Part shown: piece after piece, positions 33,022 to 50,022 of the stretch | Layout: each line of letters opens with the position of its first letter | How positions within the stretch are numbered: the first letter of the stretch is position 1 | From: Thermophilibacter provencensis | GTDB lineage: Bacteria; Actinomycetota; Coriobacteriia; Coriobacteriales; Atopobiaceae | Direction: 5' to 3' | NCBI RefSeq assembly: GCF_030372065.1 | Contig: NZ_JAUDEA010000005.1 | Span: 62,001-126,000, forward strand | DNA: 64,000 bases | Position numbers and translations under genes: made by a program | The notes under the pieces: model-generated | What the model was told of the DNA's origin: nothing | Seen by the model: the letters and a program-made list of their open reading frames with translations, nothing else | Database searches by the model: none

Positions 33022-33863
33022 TGCCCGAGATTCGCGTTGCCGGCGAGGCGGGCGCCTGCTACGGCGTGGAGCGCGCCCTCCAGATGGTGGAGTCCGCCGC
33101 GGCGGAGGGCGCGGGCGTGGTTCACACGCTCGGGCCCCTCATCCACAACCCGCGCGTCATCTCCGATCTTGCCGCCCGCGGCGTGGACGCCGTGGGCTCG
33201 CCTGAGGAGGCGGCCGGCGACACGCTCCTCCTGCGCACGCACGGGACGGTTCCCGAGGAGGAGGCGCGGGCGCGCGAGCTCTGCTCCCGCGTGCTCGACG
33301 CCACGTGCCCCTTTGTGAAGAAGGTCCACCTTGCGGCGGAGCGCCTCTCGAGCGAGGGCTACCAGGTCGTCGTGGTGGGGGAGGCGGGTCACCCCGAGGT
33401 GGAGGCAACGCTGCCGCACGCGCCCGGCGCGGTGGTGGTGGGCTCCGCCGAGCAGGCCGCTGCGCTCCCGCACGCGCGCAAGGTGGGCGTTGTGGTGCAG
33501 ACGACGGCGCGCCGCGCGCTTCTTGCCGAGGTGGTCGAGGCGCTTCTCGGCGTGGCCGAGGAGGTGCGCGTCATCAACACCATCTGCGAGGCAACGTCCG
33601 GCCACCAGGCCGCCGCCGAGCGGCTCGCGCGCGAGGCGGACGTGATGATCGTCATCGGCGGGCGCATCTCTGCCAACACCACGCGTCTTGCGGAGATCTC
33701 CGCGGCGTGCTGCCCCAGGACGCATCACGTTGAGGGTGCTGACGAGCTGCGTGCCGAGTGGTTCTCCGGCGCGGACCTCATTGGCATCACGGCCGGCGCC
33801 AGCACGCCGGCGTCGCAGATCGAGGCCGTTCGGACAGAGATCGAGCGGATGGTGGGCGCCTAG
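33021..33863 (+). CDS. ispH: 4-hydroxy-3-methylbut-2-enyl diphosphate reductase
   Basis: Last MEP-pathway enzyme, a [4Fe-4S] protein making IPP and DMAPP. The 280-residue protein has cluster ligand Cys13 in GACYGVERAL, the second in DATCPFVKK and the third in NTICEATSGHQ, with TLGPLIHNPRVI, the catalytic Glu in GHPEVEATL and ITAGASTP. Other bacteria often fuse it to plsC or S1; here plsC and ispH are separate but overlapping genes. Its TAG stop shares the palindrome CTAG with the stop of the convergent DUF512 gene. Confidence 0.95.
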   Translation: MPEIRVAGEAGACYGVERALQMVESAAAEGAGVVHTLGPLIHNPRVISDLAARGVDAVGSPEEAAGDTLLLRTHGTVPEEEARARELCSRVLDATCPFVKKVHLAAERLSSEGYQVVVVGEAGHPEVEATLPHAPGAVVVGSAEQAAALPHARKVGVVVQTTARRALLAEVVEALLGVAEEVRVINTICEATSGHQAAAERLAREADVMIVIGGRISANTTRLAEISAACCPRTHHVEGADELRAEWFSGADLIGITAGASTPASQIEAVRTEIERMVGA

Positions 33864-35251
33864 GGGCGCTTACCGTCGAGCGCGGCGAGAAGGGCGTCGA
33901 GGTAGTCTCCGGGGTTGGGGACGCTTACCGCGCACGCCGCGCCGCGGTGCCCGAGCTCATCGAGGATGCGGGCCTGCGTGTCCCCGTCAAGCGTGAGCTT
34001 GTCAAAGTTGAACATGACCTCGGGAAGGACCACGAGGGTCCCGGCGAGGCCTTCGGGGAGCTGGGCGAGCAGGTCCTCCGAGACGATGAGCCCCGTCACG
34101 TTGACGTCCCCGCCAAAGTAGTCGTTGCGTATCGCGAACGTGCGCACGCGGCCCGCCGGCGAGGCGGTCTTGCAGAAGGCGTCGATCGTCTCGCGCGCGG
34201 CCTCGCCGCAGACGAGCAGCGCCTGGAGGCTCTTCTCGGCAAGCCGCGCGTCGATTTGAGCGAGCTCTGGGGCGCGCTCGCGCGCGACGAGGGCCGTCTC
34301 GTCCAGAAAGCTCCTGAGCATGCCGATGCCGTCGTAGAACTGCGGGTAGCCGTCGTAGGTCTCCGCGGCGGGAACGGGCAGCTGGGCGTCCACGTAGAAC
34401 TCGTCCGAGAGCTGGAAGCGCGTGATGCCGAGCGTCTTGCGCGCGCGGGCCTGATAGGGCTCAAGGAGGCACACCACGTTGCGCGACGCCTCGAGGTCGT
34501 CGGAGTACGAGCTGTGGAAGCGGCGGCTGTGCTTGGTGTAGCCGAGTGGGACGATGGCGAGCGAGGTGATGCCCGGGCGAGCCTCCACCCAGTCGAGCGT
34601 GGCGCGCAGCTCCTCGCCGTCGTTGATGCCCGGGCAGAGCACGATCTGCGCGTGAACCTCAATGCCGGCGGAGAGGATCCTCTCGAGCACGTCGATGCCG
34701 CGCTGGGCGTGGCGGCCGATGAGCGAGCGGCGGACCTCGGGGGTTATGGCGTGGATGGAGACGTTCATCGGGGAGAGGCCGCAGGTGATGATGCGCTCGG
34801 CCTCGTCGTCCGTGACGTTGGTGAGGGTGACGAAGTTTCCCTGCAAAAACGAGAGGCGGTAGTCGTCGTCGCGCAGCGTGAGCGTGGCGCGGGCCTCGGG
34901 CGGCAGCATTGCCATGAAGCAGAACTGGCACGCGTTCACGCAGGTGCGAATGCCGTCAAAGAGCACGTCGGTGAAGTCGACGCCCCAGTCCTGGCCGGGT
35001 TCGCGCCAGAGCTCGCAGGGGGTCGTCGTGTCGTCGCGCGGGTCAAAGACCTCGAGCTCGCAGCATGCGTCGTCTGCCTCCCAGCGCCAGTCGATGATGT
35101 CGCGGGGCTCGACGCCGTTCACGGAGACGATGCGCATGCCGGGCTCGATGCCCGCCTCCCAGGCGGGGCTGCCCTCCTCAACGCCCGCGACCCAGGCGCC
35201 CGTTGCCTGTGGGCGCGTTGACGCGTAGTCCGCGCGCTTCTGCTCTGCCAT
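33860..35251 (-). CDS. PDZ / radical-SAM-like / DUF512 protein
   Basis: A 463-residue protein of the family often found next to der in Gram-positive bacteria. Domains in order: PDZ-like (about 20-80, SPAWEAGIEPGMRIVSVNG), a radical-SAM-like barrel with cysteines in CVNACQFCFM (near residue 115), MNVSIHAITPEVR and HAQIVLCPGINDG, and a C-terminal DUF512 domain (about 250-463). The CxxxCxxC pattern would bind a cluster, but activity has not been shown for this family that I know of. GGGGGAAG precedes minus-strand ATG 35251; an upstream ATG at 35278 lacks a site. der lies 1.8 kb away on the other strand. Confidence 0.87.
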   Translation of the reverse strand: MAEQKRADYASTRPQATGAWVAGVEEGSPAWEAGIEPGMRIVSVNGVEPRDIIDWRWEADDACCELEVFDPRDDTTTPCELWREPGQDWGVDFTDVLFDGIRTCVNACQFCFMAMLPPEARATLTLRDDDYRLSFLQGNFVTLTNVTDDEAERIITCGLSPMNVSIHAITPEVRRSLIGRHAQRGIDVLERILSAGIEVHAQIVLCPGINDGEELRATLDWVEARPGITSLAIVPLGYTKHSRRFHSSYSDDLEASRNVVCLLEPYQARARKTLGITRFQLSDEFYVDAQLPVPAAETYDGYPQFYDGIGMLRSFLDETALVARERAPELAQIDARLAEKSLQALLVCGEAARETIDAFCKTASPAGRVRTFAIRNDYFGGDVNVTGLIVSEDLLAQLPEGLAGTLVVLPEVMFNFDKLTLDGDTQARILDELGHRGAACAVSVPNPGDYLDALLAALDGKRP

Positions 35252-35274
35252 GCTTCCCCCGTTCTTCTCGGCAG

Positions 35275-36396
35275 TCATTGTGCCACAGCGGGGGAGAGGG
35301 TGCCTGCGCCCACCGTCTCACCATCAAAGTCGCGAGCGCCCGACATCACGAGCGGAGGGTCCCGATTTGTCCAGTGAAGCCCGTCGGCACGGGCGAGCCT
35401 GGCGTTGAGGCCCGCCTTGCGCTCGGCCCAGAGCCTCGACTCCTGCTCGGTGAGCACCGGTTCGGGCAGGCCGAGGTCATGACGGATGCACCTTGCGAGC
35501 CAGTCGAGGTAGGCGATGTCGTCATAGTGCTCCTTTGCGATCTCGTAGTCCTTGATGTCGCGGGCGAGAAGCTCATTTCTCCTGTTGATGTCCTTTGACT
35601 CCTGCTGCTCGTCACGGTGGTAGGCGCCCTGGTAGTCCACGGCAACCGCCTTGAACGGCGTGGGGGCATCGCCTGCATGGTCTGGCGCGAGCAGGATGAT
35701 GTCCGGCTTTCTGATCCTCTGCGCGGCCTCGCCGAGGATTGCCCCCGCGCGCTCAACCGCAACCGGGTCGTTGAGCCCGACCACCTTGATGTCATAGCCG
35801 CCGTGCCGCATGTCCAGCTCAAATCTGTGACACGTCCTGCTCTCCTGCGGCGAGCCCGAGCGGTCGCGCGCGTGCTGGAGCACGCGCCGCAGCTTTCTCG
35901 TGCCGCGGACGGGTCCCAGCTCGTCAAGGAACGATGAGATGCGACTTACGCTTGTCAGAGGTTCTTCTCGCTTGACGAGGCCGCTCTTGGCGATTGGCTG
36001 GATTCCGTAATACCCGCAGAGCTCGTCGACCAGCATGAGCAGCTCCGTCTCTGTGGCGTACTCGGTCATCTGGAGTGCCACGAGCTCCGGCGACGCGCAG
36101 GCAACGTTGGGCGTGAGGCGCACGTGCGAGTTCTCGGGATATCTCTTGAGCGCGATGTGGGCGACTGCCAATTTTGACCTGTGCCGCCCCGCGTCGCTGC
36201 TAACGATCATGTGCAGGGGGAGCGTTGCGCCCGCCAGCTGCCTGACGTTTGCTGTGATGCGCTCAACTTCGGCGACGCTCGGCATGCGCTTGGGGATCAG
36301 CTCGTCTGGCACAAACGTTGCGGAGCGCAGCAGCCGGCCCGAGTCCCAGCGGCGGAGTATCTCGAGTGCGGTGATATGTGAGAAGAAGGCGTCCAT
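35275..36396 (-). CDS. Probable AbiEi-like / VSR-nuclease-fold protein
   Basis: A 373-residue protein I recognise only loosely. The N-terminal third (MDAFFSHITALEILRRWDSG) and the middle resemble the AbiEi-antitoxin-like proteins of actinobacteria. The C-terminal third has KPDIILL, then AVAVDYQGAYHRDEQQ, SKDINRRNELLA and KDYEIAKEHYDDIAYLD, an arrangement like the VSR/DUF559 PD-(D/E)xK fold (acidic residue, Q-x-x-x-H, D-x-x-R-R-N). No toxin gene is adjacent. It lies 24 bases upstream of the DUF512 gene on the same strand, so they may be cotranscribed. No clear ribosome-binding site precedes ATG 36396. Function is inference. Confidence 0.6.
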   Translation of the reverse strand: MDAFFSHITALEILRRWDSGRLLRSATFVPDELIPKRMPSVAEVERITANVRQLAGATLPLHMIVSSDAGRHRSKLAVAHIALKRYPENSHVRLTPNVACASPELVALQMTEYATETELLMLVDELCGYYGIQPIAKSGLVKREEPLTSVSRISSFLDELGPVRGTRKLRRVLQHARDRSGSPQESRTCHRFELDMRHGGYDIKVVGLNDPVAVERAGAILGEAAQRIRKPDIILLAPDHAGDAPTPFKAVAVDYQGAYHRDEQQESKDINRRNELLARDIKDYEIAKEHYDDIAYLDWLARCIRHDLGLPEPVLTEQESRLWAERKAGLNARLARADGLHWTNRDPPLVMSGARDFDGETVGAGTLSPAVAQ

Positions 36397-36642
36397 GAGC
36401 CTAGGGTATTTCTGGGCGCGGGCGTTGGGGCCGAGATTCCAAGAAAGTCGAACACGAACCTTACGCGGGACTTGCCGGTATCTGGCAAGATTTGTATCCG
36501 TGCAGCTACGAGGTATCGCTTGACATAAGGAACTGTACTAGAAATTAAATCGATGCGCAGGGCTCATCTTGTGTTTCTCGGCGACGGGCGCTGCATCGCG
36601 GTTTCTGTCGTCGCGTTATGTCCCTTGCGGGCCCAACTCCGC
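36397..36642. other. AT-richer intergenic segment before the hairpin array
   Basis: Holds the upstream region of the minus-strand gene and, on the plus strand, TTGACA at 36520-36525 with TTAAAT at 36545-36550 (19-base spacer), a possible weak promoter reading into the array. No gene seen. Confidence 0.4.
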
Positions 36643-36960
36643 ACCCAGATCCGGTTCTGGGTCCGCGACGGCGCCAACCCTGTGCACAAATCCGGTTCTG
36701 GGTCCCCGACGGCGCCAACCCAGCACCCAGATTCAGTTCTGGGTCCGCAACGAGAACAACCCAGCACCCAAATCCAGTTCTGGGTCCGCAGCGGCAATGA
36801 GCCTGCACCCAGATCTGATTCTGGGTCCGTTACGGATCCAGTCCAGTACGCAAATCCGGTTCTGTGCGCGGGTTTGGGGGGCGAGAAGGACCCAAATCCG
36901 GTTCTGGGTGCTGGAGTGACAGAGCGTGGGGGCGAGAAGGACCCAGATCCGGTTCTGGGT
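36643..36960. repeat. Array of eight 20-nt hairpin units, 41-nt period
   Basis: Units close to ACCCAGATCCGGTTCTGGGT begin at 36643, 36684, 36725, 36766, 36807, 36848, 36890 and 36941. The first six are spaced by exactly 41 bases, then 42 and 51. In full copies ACCCAGA and TCTGGGT are complementary, so each unit can fold as a stem of seven with a six-base loop. The spacers are related to each other (CCGCGACGGCGCCAACC type, later GCGAGAAGG), unlike CRISPR spacers, and no cas gene is present. Frames are open through the array on both strands, but only because of the repeat. It ends 110 bases before der. Confidence 0.9.
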
Positions 36961-37070
36961 GCCGGCACGAGAGACGGAGTCGCAAAAAAGTGGGGATTTA
37001 GCGCGCTCACCGGCCAAAACCTGCCGCTCGTGCTAGACTTCTTGCGCCAATGGAATAGCAAGGAGACAAG

Positions 37071-38402
37071 ATGCCAAAGCCCGTAGTCGCCGTGGTCGGC
37101 CGCCCCAACGTCGGCAAGTCCACGCTCGTCAACCGCATTGCGGTGAGCCGCGACGCCATCGTCCACGAGTCGCGCGGGGTCACGCGCGACCGCTCGTACC
37201 ACGACGCCGACTGGAACGGTCGCGACTTCACCCTCATCGACACCGGCGGCATCGAGTCTGTCAAGTCAAAGGACGTCTTTGCGCCCCGTATCCGCGAACA
37301 GGCGCTCATGGCCTGCGAGGAGGCCGACGTCATCGTCTTTGTGGTGGACGGCACCACCGGCGTGACCGACGAGGACGAGGAGGTCGCGCGCATCCTGCGC
37401 AAGACCGACAAGCCCGTCTTCCTCGTGGTCAACAAGAAGGACAACCCCGCCACCGAGCAGGACGGTCTCTGGGACTTTTACGCCCTCGGCGTCGGCGAGC
37501 CGCGCCCGCTCTCCGCGGGGCATGGCTACGGCACGGGTGACCTCCTCGACGACATCGTCGCAGCCTTCCCCGAGCCCTCCGAGGAGGAGCCCGCGGACGA
37601 CATGCTCTCCCTGGCCATAGTCGGCCGCCCCAACGTCGGCAAGTCCAGCCTCGCCAACCGTCTCGCCAACAAGAAGCGCTCCATCGTCTCTGACGTGGCG
37701 GGCACCACGCGCGACGCCATTGACAGCGTGATCGAGTGGAAGGGCATGCCCATCAAGCTCGTGGACACCGCGGGCATGCGCAAGAAGACGCAGGTCCACG
37801 AGGACGTCGAGTACTACAGCCTGGTGCGCGGCCTCCAGGCGATCGACCGCGCTGACGTGTGCCTGCTCGTCGTGGACGCCACCGTGGGCGTGACCGAGCA
37901 GGACCAGAAGGTTGCCAACATGGCCATCGACCGTGGCTGCGGCCTCGTGCTCGTGCTCAACAAGTGGGACCTCATCGAGACCGACCAGCAGCGTGACGAG
38001 ATCGTCGCCTCCATCGACAAGCGCCTCGCCTTCGCGCCGTGGATCCCCACCGTCAACGTCTCCGCGCTCACCGGGCGCGCCGTCGACAAGGTCCTCGGCC
38101 TGGCCGTCCGAGCCGCCGAGGCGCATGCCTGCCAGCTCAAGACCTCCGAGCTCAACGATCTTCTCGCGGAGATTCGCGAGGGCGGTCACACCCGCAGCGA
38201 GAAGGGCCGCAGGCTCAAGATCCAGTACGCCACGCAGACGGGCAGCAAGCCGCCGGTCATCTCCTTCTGGTGCAACGCCCCCGACCTCGTGGACGATAAC
38301 TTCGAGCGCTTCCTCGAGAACCGCCTCCGCGCGCGCTTTGACCTCACGGGCACGCCGGTACGCCTCAAGTTCCGCAGGAAGTCCGAGGGGGGCGAGCGCT
38401 AG
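37071..38402 (+). CDS. der: Ribosome biogenesis GTPase Der (EngA)
   Basis: Double GTPase needed for 50S assembly. The 443-residue protein has two tandem G domains, GRPNVGKSTLVNRI with DTGGI and NKKD, then GRPNVGKSSLANRL with DTAGMRKK and NKWD, and a C-terminal KH-like domain (TGTPVRLKFR). AAGGAGACAAG precedes ATG 37071; TAGACT at 37044-37049 may be a -10. Its stop overlaps the GTG start of plsY by one base. The hairpin array lies just upstream and could affect its expression. Confidence 0.96.
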   Translation: MPKPVVAVVGRPNVGKSTLVNRIAVSRDAIVHESRGVTRDRSYHDADWNGRDFTLIDTGGIESVKSKDVFAPRIREQALMACEEADVIVFVVDGTTGVTDEDEEVARILRKTDKPVFLVVNKKDNPATEQDGLWDFYALGVGEPRPLSAGHGYGTGDLLDDIVAAFPEPSEEEPADDMLSLAIVGRPNVGKSSLANRLANKKRSIVSDVAGTTRDAIDSVIEWKGMPIKLVDTAGMRKKTQVHEDVEYYSLVRGLQAIDRADVCLLVVDATVGVTEQDQKVANMAIDRGCGLVLVLNKWDLIETDQQRDEIVASIDKRLAFAPWIPTVNVSALTGRAVDKVLGLAVRAAEAHACQLKTSELNDLLAEIREGGHTRSEKGRRLKIQYATQTGSKPPVISFWCNAPDLVDDNFERFLENRLRARFDLTGTPVRLKFRRKSEGGER

Positions 38403-49775: not shown

Positions 49776-49841
49776 GTTTTGGGCAACAAGTTTGATGTGT
49801 GGGCGCGTCTCGCATAAAACTTGTTGCCCAAAACTCTTTTT
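49776..49841 (+). terminator. 18-bp perfect stem, terminator of the NlpC/P60 gene
   Basis: GTTTTGGGCAACAAGTTT (49776-49793) and AAACTTGTTGCCCAAAAC (49817-49834) are perfect complements with a 23-base loop, followed by TCTTTTTAT. Single arms of the same sequence occur at 18137-18155 and, weaker, near 49907-49925, so it is also a repeat family. Confidence 0.85.
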
Positions 49842-50022
49842 ATGGAGCGATTTCTTAACAGCGGATAAGAGTATGGCGCCGAGAAGGACCTGGCGGAGAG
49901 AGGGGCATCAAACATGTTGCCCACAACTTGTCGTTTTGTCCCGAATCGGCCGTTCCCGCTGACACGTTGGCGTCTCGAACGCAAAAGTTCCTCTTCCCGG
50001 CAGCGGCCGTTGCTCGCAAGGC
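49842..50022. other. Non-coding stretch
   Basis: No gene seen. It holds a degenerate CATCAAACATGTTGCCCACA copy near 49907 and a GAGAAGGACC segment; otherwise featureless. Confidence 0.5.

Follow-up and report, generated by a model that had tools for sequence, protein, structure and literature searches.

The 64,000-nt stretch of Thermophilibacter provencensis DNA analysed here (contig NZ_JAUDEA010000005.1, positions 62,001 to 126,000; hereafter the window, whose numbering is used throughout) carries an array of eight 20-bp dyad-symmetric sites (36643..36960, no strand assigned), which is probably a cluster of DNA-binding sites for the product of the neighbouring minus-strand gene, the candidate cognate protein P373 (373 aa; 35275..36396, minus strand), or for another protein of its subfamily. 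What leads to this reading is the make-up of the sites, their helical spacing, a symmetry that is one of DNA, the pairing of P373 paralogs with sites of their own and the dispersal of the arrays into intergenic spaces.

The eight sites share the consensus ACCCARATCCRGTTCTGGGT and follow one another at steps of 41, 41, 41, 41, 41, 42 and 51 nt. They are located at 36643..36662 (site 1, ACCCAGATCCGGTTCTGGGT), 36684..36703 (site 2, GCACAAATCCGGTTCTGGGT), 36725..36744 (site 3, ACCCAGATTCAGTTCTGGGT), 36766..36785 (site 4, ACCCAAATCCAGTTCTGGGT), 36807..36826 (site 5, ACCCAGATCTGATTCTGGGT), 36848..36867 (site 6, degenerate, ACGCAAATCCGGTTCTGTGC), 36890..36909 (site 7, ACCCAAATCCGGTTCTGGGT) and 36941..36960 (site 8, again ACCCAGATCCGGTTCTGGGT), and none is assigned a strand. 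The 20-bp site is made up of two 10-bp half-sites flanking a CCGG-like centre. With up to 3 mismatches allowed, 12 matches to the site were found, against 0.01 expected from shuffled sequence, and TRF detected a period of 41 in the array; both bear out the copy number and steps listed in the first-pass annotation of this DNA. That annotation also stated that full copies form 7-bp stems, which is true of four of the eight units (36643, 36725, 36807 and 36941), whereas in the remaining four (36684, 36766, 36848 and 36890) CAAATC stands opposite TTCTG with one A.C mispair, unit 36848 being degraded further. In the variants it had cited as keeping the stem, the changes fall mainly in the loop or disrupt a pair. 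The linkers between the sites are alike (mean identity 0.64), suggesting that the array has grown at least partly by local duplication, as had been proposed. The array had also rightly been set apart from CRISPR, which shares its regular short repeats and spacers: here the repeats vary in sequence, the spacers are related within the array and the step is 41 nt.

In the genome to which the window belongs (G000; 2.23 Mb, 94.7% complete), sites of this ACCCAGA type occur at only four loci, one of them adjoining P373, and the 41-nt step is seen in three. A consensus search beyond the locus had been recommended, and it recovered the three further loci, which are the rplX-rplE gap (6 units, 41-nt step), the dapB-dapD gap (5 units, 41-nt step) and the leuS-rimP gap, where the units are irregular and intermixed with CTCAAA-type hairpins (gene names read from translated open reading frames, ORFs). 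Linker identity between the three regular arrays is 0.24-0.38, which is no higher than, or slightly above, the 0.28 obtained with shuffled sequence. That the step is shared despite unrelated linkers suggests that the step, and not only the sequence, is constrained. The rplX-rplE gap holds no array in the sister genome G009, and in other species it contains either their own array types or a repetitive extragenic palindrome (REP) of the type associated with REP-associated tyrosine transposases (RAYTs). Of 38 array loci surveyed in four genomes on the basis of a simple rule for calling ORFs, 37 are intergenic and 1 is inside an ORF. The genes on either side run in the same direction at 26 loci, converge at 7 and diverge at 2, and 2 loci were left unassigned. 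Array placement resembles that of REPs more closely than that of promoter operators. The window itself contains a second dispersed array at 49781-49922, in which a different site type is present three times (GGGCAACAAGTTTGATG, CATAAAACTTGTTGCCC and CATCAAACATGTTGCCC); the P373 paralog of contig C33 is flanked by sites of this type.

The half-site pattern nCnCAnWTSC is common to ten genomes, with positions 1, 3, 6 and 7 varying between species, and sites of this pattern number 40-86 in sampled DNA of genomes G022, G008 and G017, compared with 1-11 in shuffles. Their steps fall into a few classes: in G022, 46 of the 47 measure 30/31 or 40/41 nt; in G002 they are 30-32 nt and in G008 and G029 mostly 30 nt, and G000 adds steps of 29-32, 41, 42 and 51 nt. 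When steps of up to 60 nt are pooled, 108 of 110 fall in windows near multiples of 10.2-10.4; lengths of about 30, 41 or 51 nt predominate, and intermediate ones are very rare. No one phasing period was found to fit all genomes, the best fits ranging from 10.2 (G022) to 10.8 (G000). Genomes G017 and G021 differ in having 29-nt steps together with a 135-nt compound unit. In the 135-nt arrays of G017 (loci L051-L059), a conserved segment of about 115 nt is found between the palindromes in both orientations, as if it had been inverted or inserted at them.

The P373 family has 5-15 members in every one of the 31 genus genomes and is present in 101 of 199 genomes of the class (E<=1e-30). All ten close P373 orthologs examined (G000:C31, G000:C35, G022, G007, G009, G008, G014, G029, G017/G021 and G025) carry the same half-site pattern in their flanks, mostly on both sides, with letters specific to the lineage. 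Within G000, each of the five paralogs examined (C31, C35, C4, C5 and C33) is flanked by its own site type. The C35 site reads KCWCAAWTCY...; the C4 site, CACTCGGCGSGATTCYGCAGCGG, is present in 13 copies on both sides of the gene, mostly 41-42 nt apart, and 18 times genome-wide at 3 mismatches; C5 (site TGTCCTGAAAWTNGGGGGTAYGGCA) and C33 likewise have their own sites in both flanks. Such private sites are often non-palindromic. Distant family members in other genomes have further site types, several of them, as judged by eye, at 31 or 41 nt. Repeat coverage was also compared between 68 family flanks and 400 control flanks, giving a median z of 6.6 for the former vs 0.8 for the latter (Mann-Whitney p about 1e-21), with 57% of the family flanks exceeding the control 95th percentile; outside the genus this was the case for 16 of 36 family flanks (44%). 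The suggestion of a protein-binding array made by the first-pass annotation fits the evidence, and its pointer towards the minus-strand gene was in the right direction, except that the relationship looks like one of a cognate protein and its sites and not simple control of that gene. As a separate observation, the paralog and array of G009 and those of G000:C35 (loci L252 and L253) are 99-100% identical, and identity falls to about 92% immediately beyond the array, a pattern possibly due to recent transfer or conversion.

P373 would combine an AbiEi C-terminal-domain-like half with a DUF559/Vsr-like PD-(D/E)XK nuclease half. It has no Pfam match at E<=10, and Foldseek alone gave no significant match. 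In an AlphaFold2 model built with 32 relatives (pLDDT 86, pTM 0.87), residues 1-177 align to AbiEi (6y8q; VIA-align Z 7.3 over 119 residues) and to Rv2827c (1zel; Z 5.0), and residues 180-309 to the endonuclease-like structure 3hrl (Z 8.1), with VRR-NUC and TnsA scoring below. Among 32 family members, 7 have a weak MTES_1575 match and one a DUF559 match at 1.4e-5. Residues D232, H260 and D269 are invariant in the family and E185 is nearly so, together forming what we take to be a Vsr-like or EDxHD-type active site. The C-terminal half is modelled as a nuclease fold bearing conserved acidic and histidine residues, and is predicted to be a nuclease. PADLOC and NCBIfam returned no defence system or named family for P373, and relatives were absent from phage records; plasmid records gave one weak match, in a Collinsella record of 0.9 Mb. 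P373 is not adjoined by an AbiEii (DUF1814) toxin gene, its neighbours being der and a radical SAM/DUF512 gene. Literature searches found nothing on DUF559 together with AbiEi, nor on EDxHD homing endonucleases.

The promoters of AbiEi-family genes (AbiEi, Rv2827c) carry tandem 23-bp inverted repeats to which the encoded proteins bind (PMC7319586). P373, or a protein of its subfamily, may likewise bind the 20-bp sites beside its own gene. Sites three, four or five helical turns apart (about 30, 41 or 51 nt) would place the protein units on one face of the DNA, where they could bind cooperatively; that the family binds private sites in cooperative, face-aligned rows is the best supported of the steps that we infer. 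By analogy with AbiEi, for which this is known, P373 might regulate itself through its flanking sites. Together with its array it may constitute a gain-and-loss module inserted between the DUF512 gene and der, since at locus L090 these two genes are only about 150 bp apart, and array copies could have spread into other intergenic spaces in the way RAYT transposases are thought to spread REPs. The nuclease half might drive this dispersal, and that it helped to seed the arrays elsewhere is the most speculative step of the proposal.

A number of points weigh against the assignment of the array to P373. The structural Z scores of 7.3 and 8.1 are middling on the VIA-align scale and, for AbiEi, below a firm match; moreover, P373 matches AbiEi residues 67-195 only, that is, without the winged-helix domain. 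In the window only one flank of the gene bears an array, and pattern sites are present in G002, G016 and G011, where a close ortholog was not found. Control flanks for the repeat comparison were drawn from two genomes plus the window, and the flanks are not independent of one another. The spacing bins were set after the data had been seen, so that p is indicative only, and neither array units nor genomes are independent. Most of the genomes, moreover, are drafts or were assembled from metagenomes. Finally, in G017 and G021 the outer arms GACCCAAAT/ATTTGGGTC are common to the dispersed palindromes and to those that flank RAYT genes, a point that also speaks for the transposase-based explanation considered below.

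A multi-hairpin RNA leader controlling der or P373, as the first-pass annotation had envisaged, seems scarcely credible. The array does lie between two divergent genes, and 7-bp hairpins are possible in half of its units, but both the mispairs and the half-sites behave in the opposite way to that expected of an RNA stem under selection. In 24 arrays between co-directional genes, sense-strand mispairs are 34 G.U vs 37 A.C, with 7 arrays leaning each way, and in 79 sites of the G008/G029 type, on which the proposed covariation test came out negative, variation in one half-site is independent of that in the other at three positions (Fisher p 0.47, 0.42 and 0.09). The symmetry of the sites is in the DNA rather than in RNA. 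In addition, an Rfam search of 36000-37500 gave no match, and the conserved upstream block of der sits downstream of the array. A neutral minisatellite grown by slippage would account for the related linkers within the window array, but independent arrays whose linkers are unrelated repeat the 41-nt step, G022, G002, G008 and G029 show the same step classes with sites that differ, and the arrays are linked to one gene family, all of which makes this very improbable. The earlier label of a species-specific minisatellite is correct as far as the letters go, but it overlooks the site pattern, spacing classes and gene linkage that recur genus-wide. Proteins that bind DNA cooperatively typically have helically phased symmetric sites, and scattered arrays could form a regulon, so the sites might be operators that lie near P373 by chance and serve a regulator or nucleoid protein unrelated to it. 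Each paralog, however, is paired with its own private site, and the orientation of the flanking genes, with only 2 of the 38 arrays between divergent ones, is not promoter-like; we regard this explanation as improbable.

The arrays could also be a REP family spread by a RAYT, a Y1 tyrosine transposase, with P373 merely a frequent neighbour. The genus is rich in RAYT genes, and a palindrome pair 40 nt apart flanks one of them in G010 (L300). Set against this, G000 has three Y1 genes and the ACCCAGA site flanks none of them, which led us to reject a RAYT as the cognate protein in this genome, and the Y1 genes examined in G022 and G008 are not flanked by the site types of their genomes. By comparison, each of the ten close P373 orthologs has its own site type in its flanks, and the paralog sites are private and often non-palindromic. 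Spread by a RAYT is accordingly unlikely, and binding by P373 or its subfamily remains the explanation that we prefer. With regard to the RAYT genes themselves, the ACTTGTACCWGGTACAAGT palindromes of G010 (46 copies, mostly in pairs exactly 40 nt apart), which flank the RAYT gene on contig C12, would seem to constitute a true REP family that shares the four-turn step. In G021 (L194) and G017 (L206), palindromes of 34-43 bp lie at the borders of the RAYT genes and have the shared outer arms mentioned above; given this sharing, the two systems may have undergone some exchange.

The der gene (EngA GTPase; 37071..38402, plus strand; Pfam MMR_HSR1 twice and KH_dom-like) is preceded by a conserved block (36990..37070, plus strand), located downstream of the array and retained by relatives that lack the array. 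Across 36990-37300, which covers this block and the start of der, identity is about 84-94% in relatives whether or not the array is present, and the ACCCAGA array is absent at der from 26 relatives whose der is about 90% identical or more. The only relatives with anything comparable there are G022 (L073/L151), with a der-side array of a different site (ACTCAYTTSCGGAARTGAGT; steps 40/41/31 nt), and G007, with degenerate half-sites. Control of der, another of the earlier proposals, is not supported: the array is not a der-specific element, and the conserved der block lies beyond it. In two relatives (L084 and L085), der is immediately preceded by perfect inverted repeats, 41 and 34 bp long (CCAATTACGTCGCGTTCGTCTGCCACAT). 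On the other side of P373, the radical SAM/DUF512 gene (33860..35278, minus strand) has a start codon that overlaps the P373 stop.

Among known systems, the REP/BIME elements and their RAYTs (REPtrons; PMC3733652, PMC2817692) are similar in that species-specific intergenic palindromes occur in pairs or arrays and also flank the presumed cognate gene. In contrast, P373 has no Y1/HUH domain, as judged from the lack of Pfam matches and from a predicted fold resembling AbiEi joined to a DUF559/Vsr-like nuclease; sites of its family are in many cases non-palindromic, its arrays reach ten units at 3-, 4- or 5-turn spacing, and there are several private gene-site pairs per genome. The operators of AbiEi and Rv2827c, from type IV toxin-antitoxin systems (PMC7319586), likewise consist of inverted repeats of some 20-23 bp in tandem, next to a gene for a protein with an AbiEi-like domain, and are bound by multiple protein units, as would be predicted for the P373 arrays. 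They comprise 2-4 repeats, whereas P373-family arrays have up to ten, lie on both sides of the gene and are dispersed elsewhere; unlike AbiEi, P373 has a fused nuclease domain, no winged helix was seen in it, and there is no AbiEii toxin neighbour in the window. DUF559/Vsr-like (MTES_1575) PD-(D/E)XK nucleases (PMC3710099) match the predicted fold of the P373 C-terminal half and its conserved E, D, H and D, but a link of such nucleases to site arrays was not found in the literature searched. Neither did we find a published description of an AbiEi/DUF559-like gene with private phased sites, or any literature on Olsenella or Collinsella intergenic repeats.

A wider proposal, to which we give somewhat less than even chances as a whole, is that of a system common to the Coriobacteriia, in which each AbiEi/DUF559-like nuclease paralog would own a private DNA site, the sites would be gathered into helically phased arrays around their own gene and seeded intergenically, and a REP-like dispersal would have evolved independently of Y1 transposases, with specificity diverging fast between species and paralogs. 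If so, this would be a second kind of gene-linked dispersed repeat beside REP/RAYT, based on a nuclease family mostly unnamed in Pfam and NCBIfam, and the several private-site paralogs per genome would provide natural protein-site pairs for the study of how DNA specificity evolves. It would also caution against taking hairpin arrays for RNA leaders of the adjacent gene.

A further feature of the window is the 10-mer GNNCTTCTCG, which is strongly over-represented throughout (e.g. 36882-36888 and 36933-36939). Its CTTCTCG word occurs 114 times in the 64 kb, vs 2-27 times for permuted words, has G at -3 in 92% of cases, and is distributed equally on both strands, inside genes as well as between them. 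The GNNCTTCTCG word was not enriched in the sampled Collinsella- or Eggerthella-type loci; it is enriched in G005, G028 and other Atopobiaceae, and looks like a DNA-uptake-type word.
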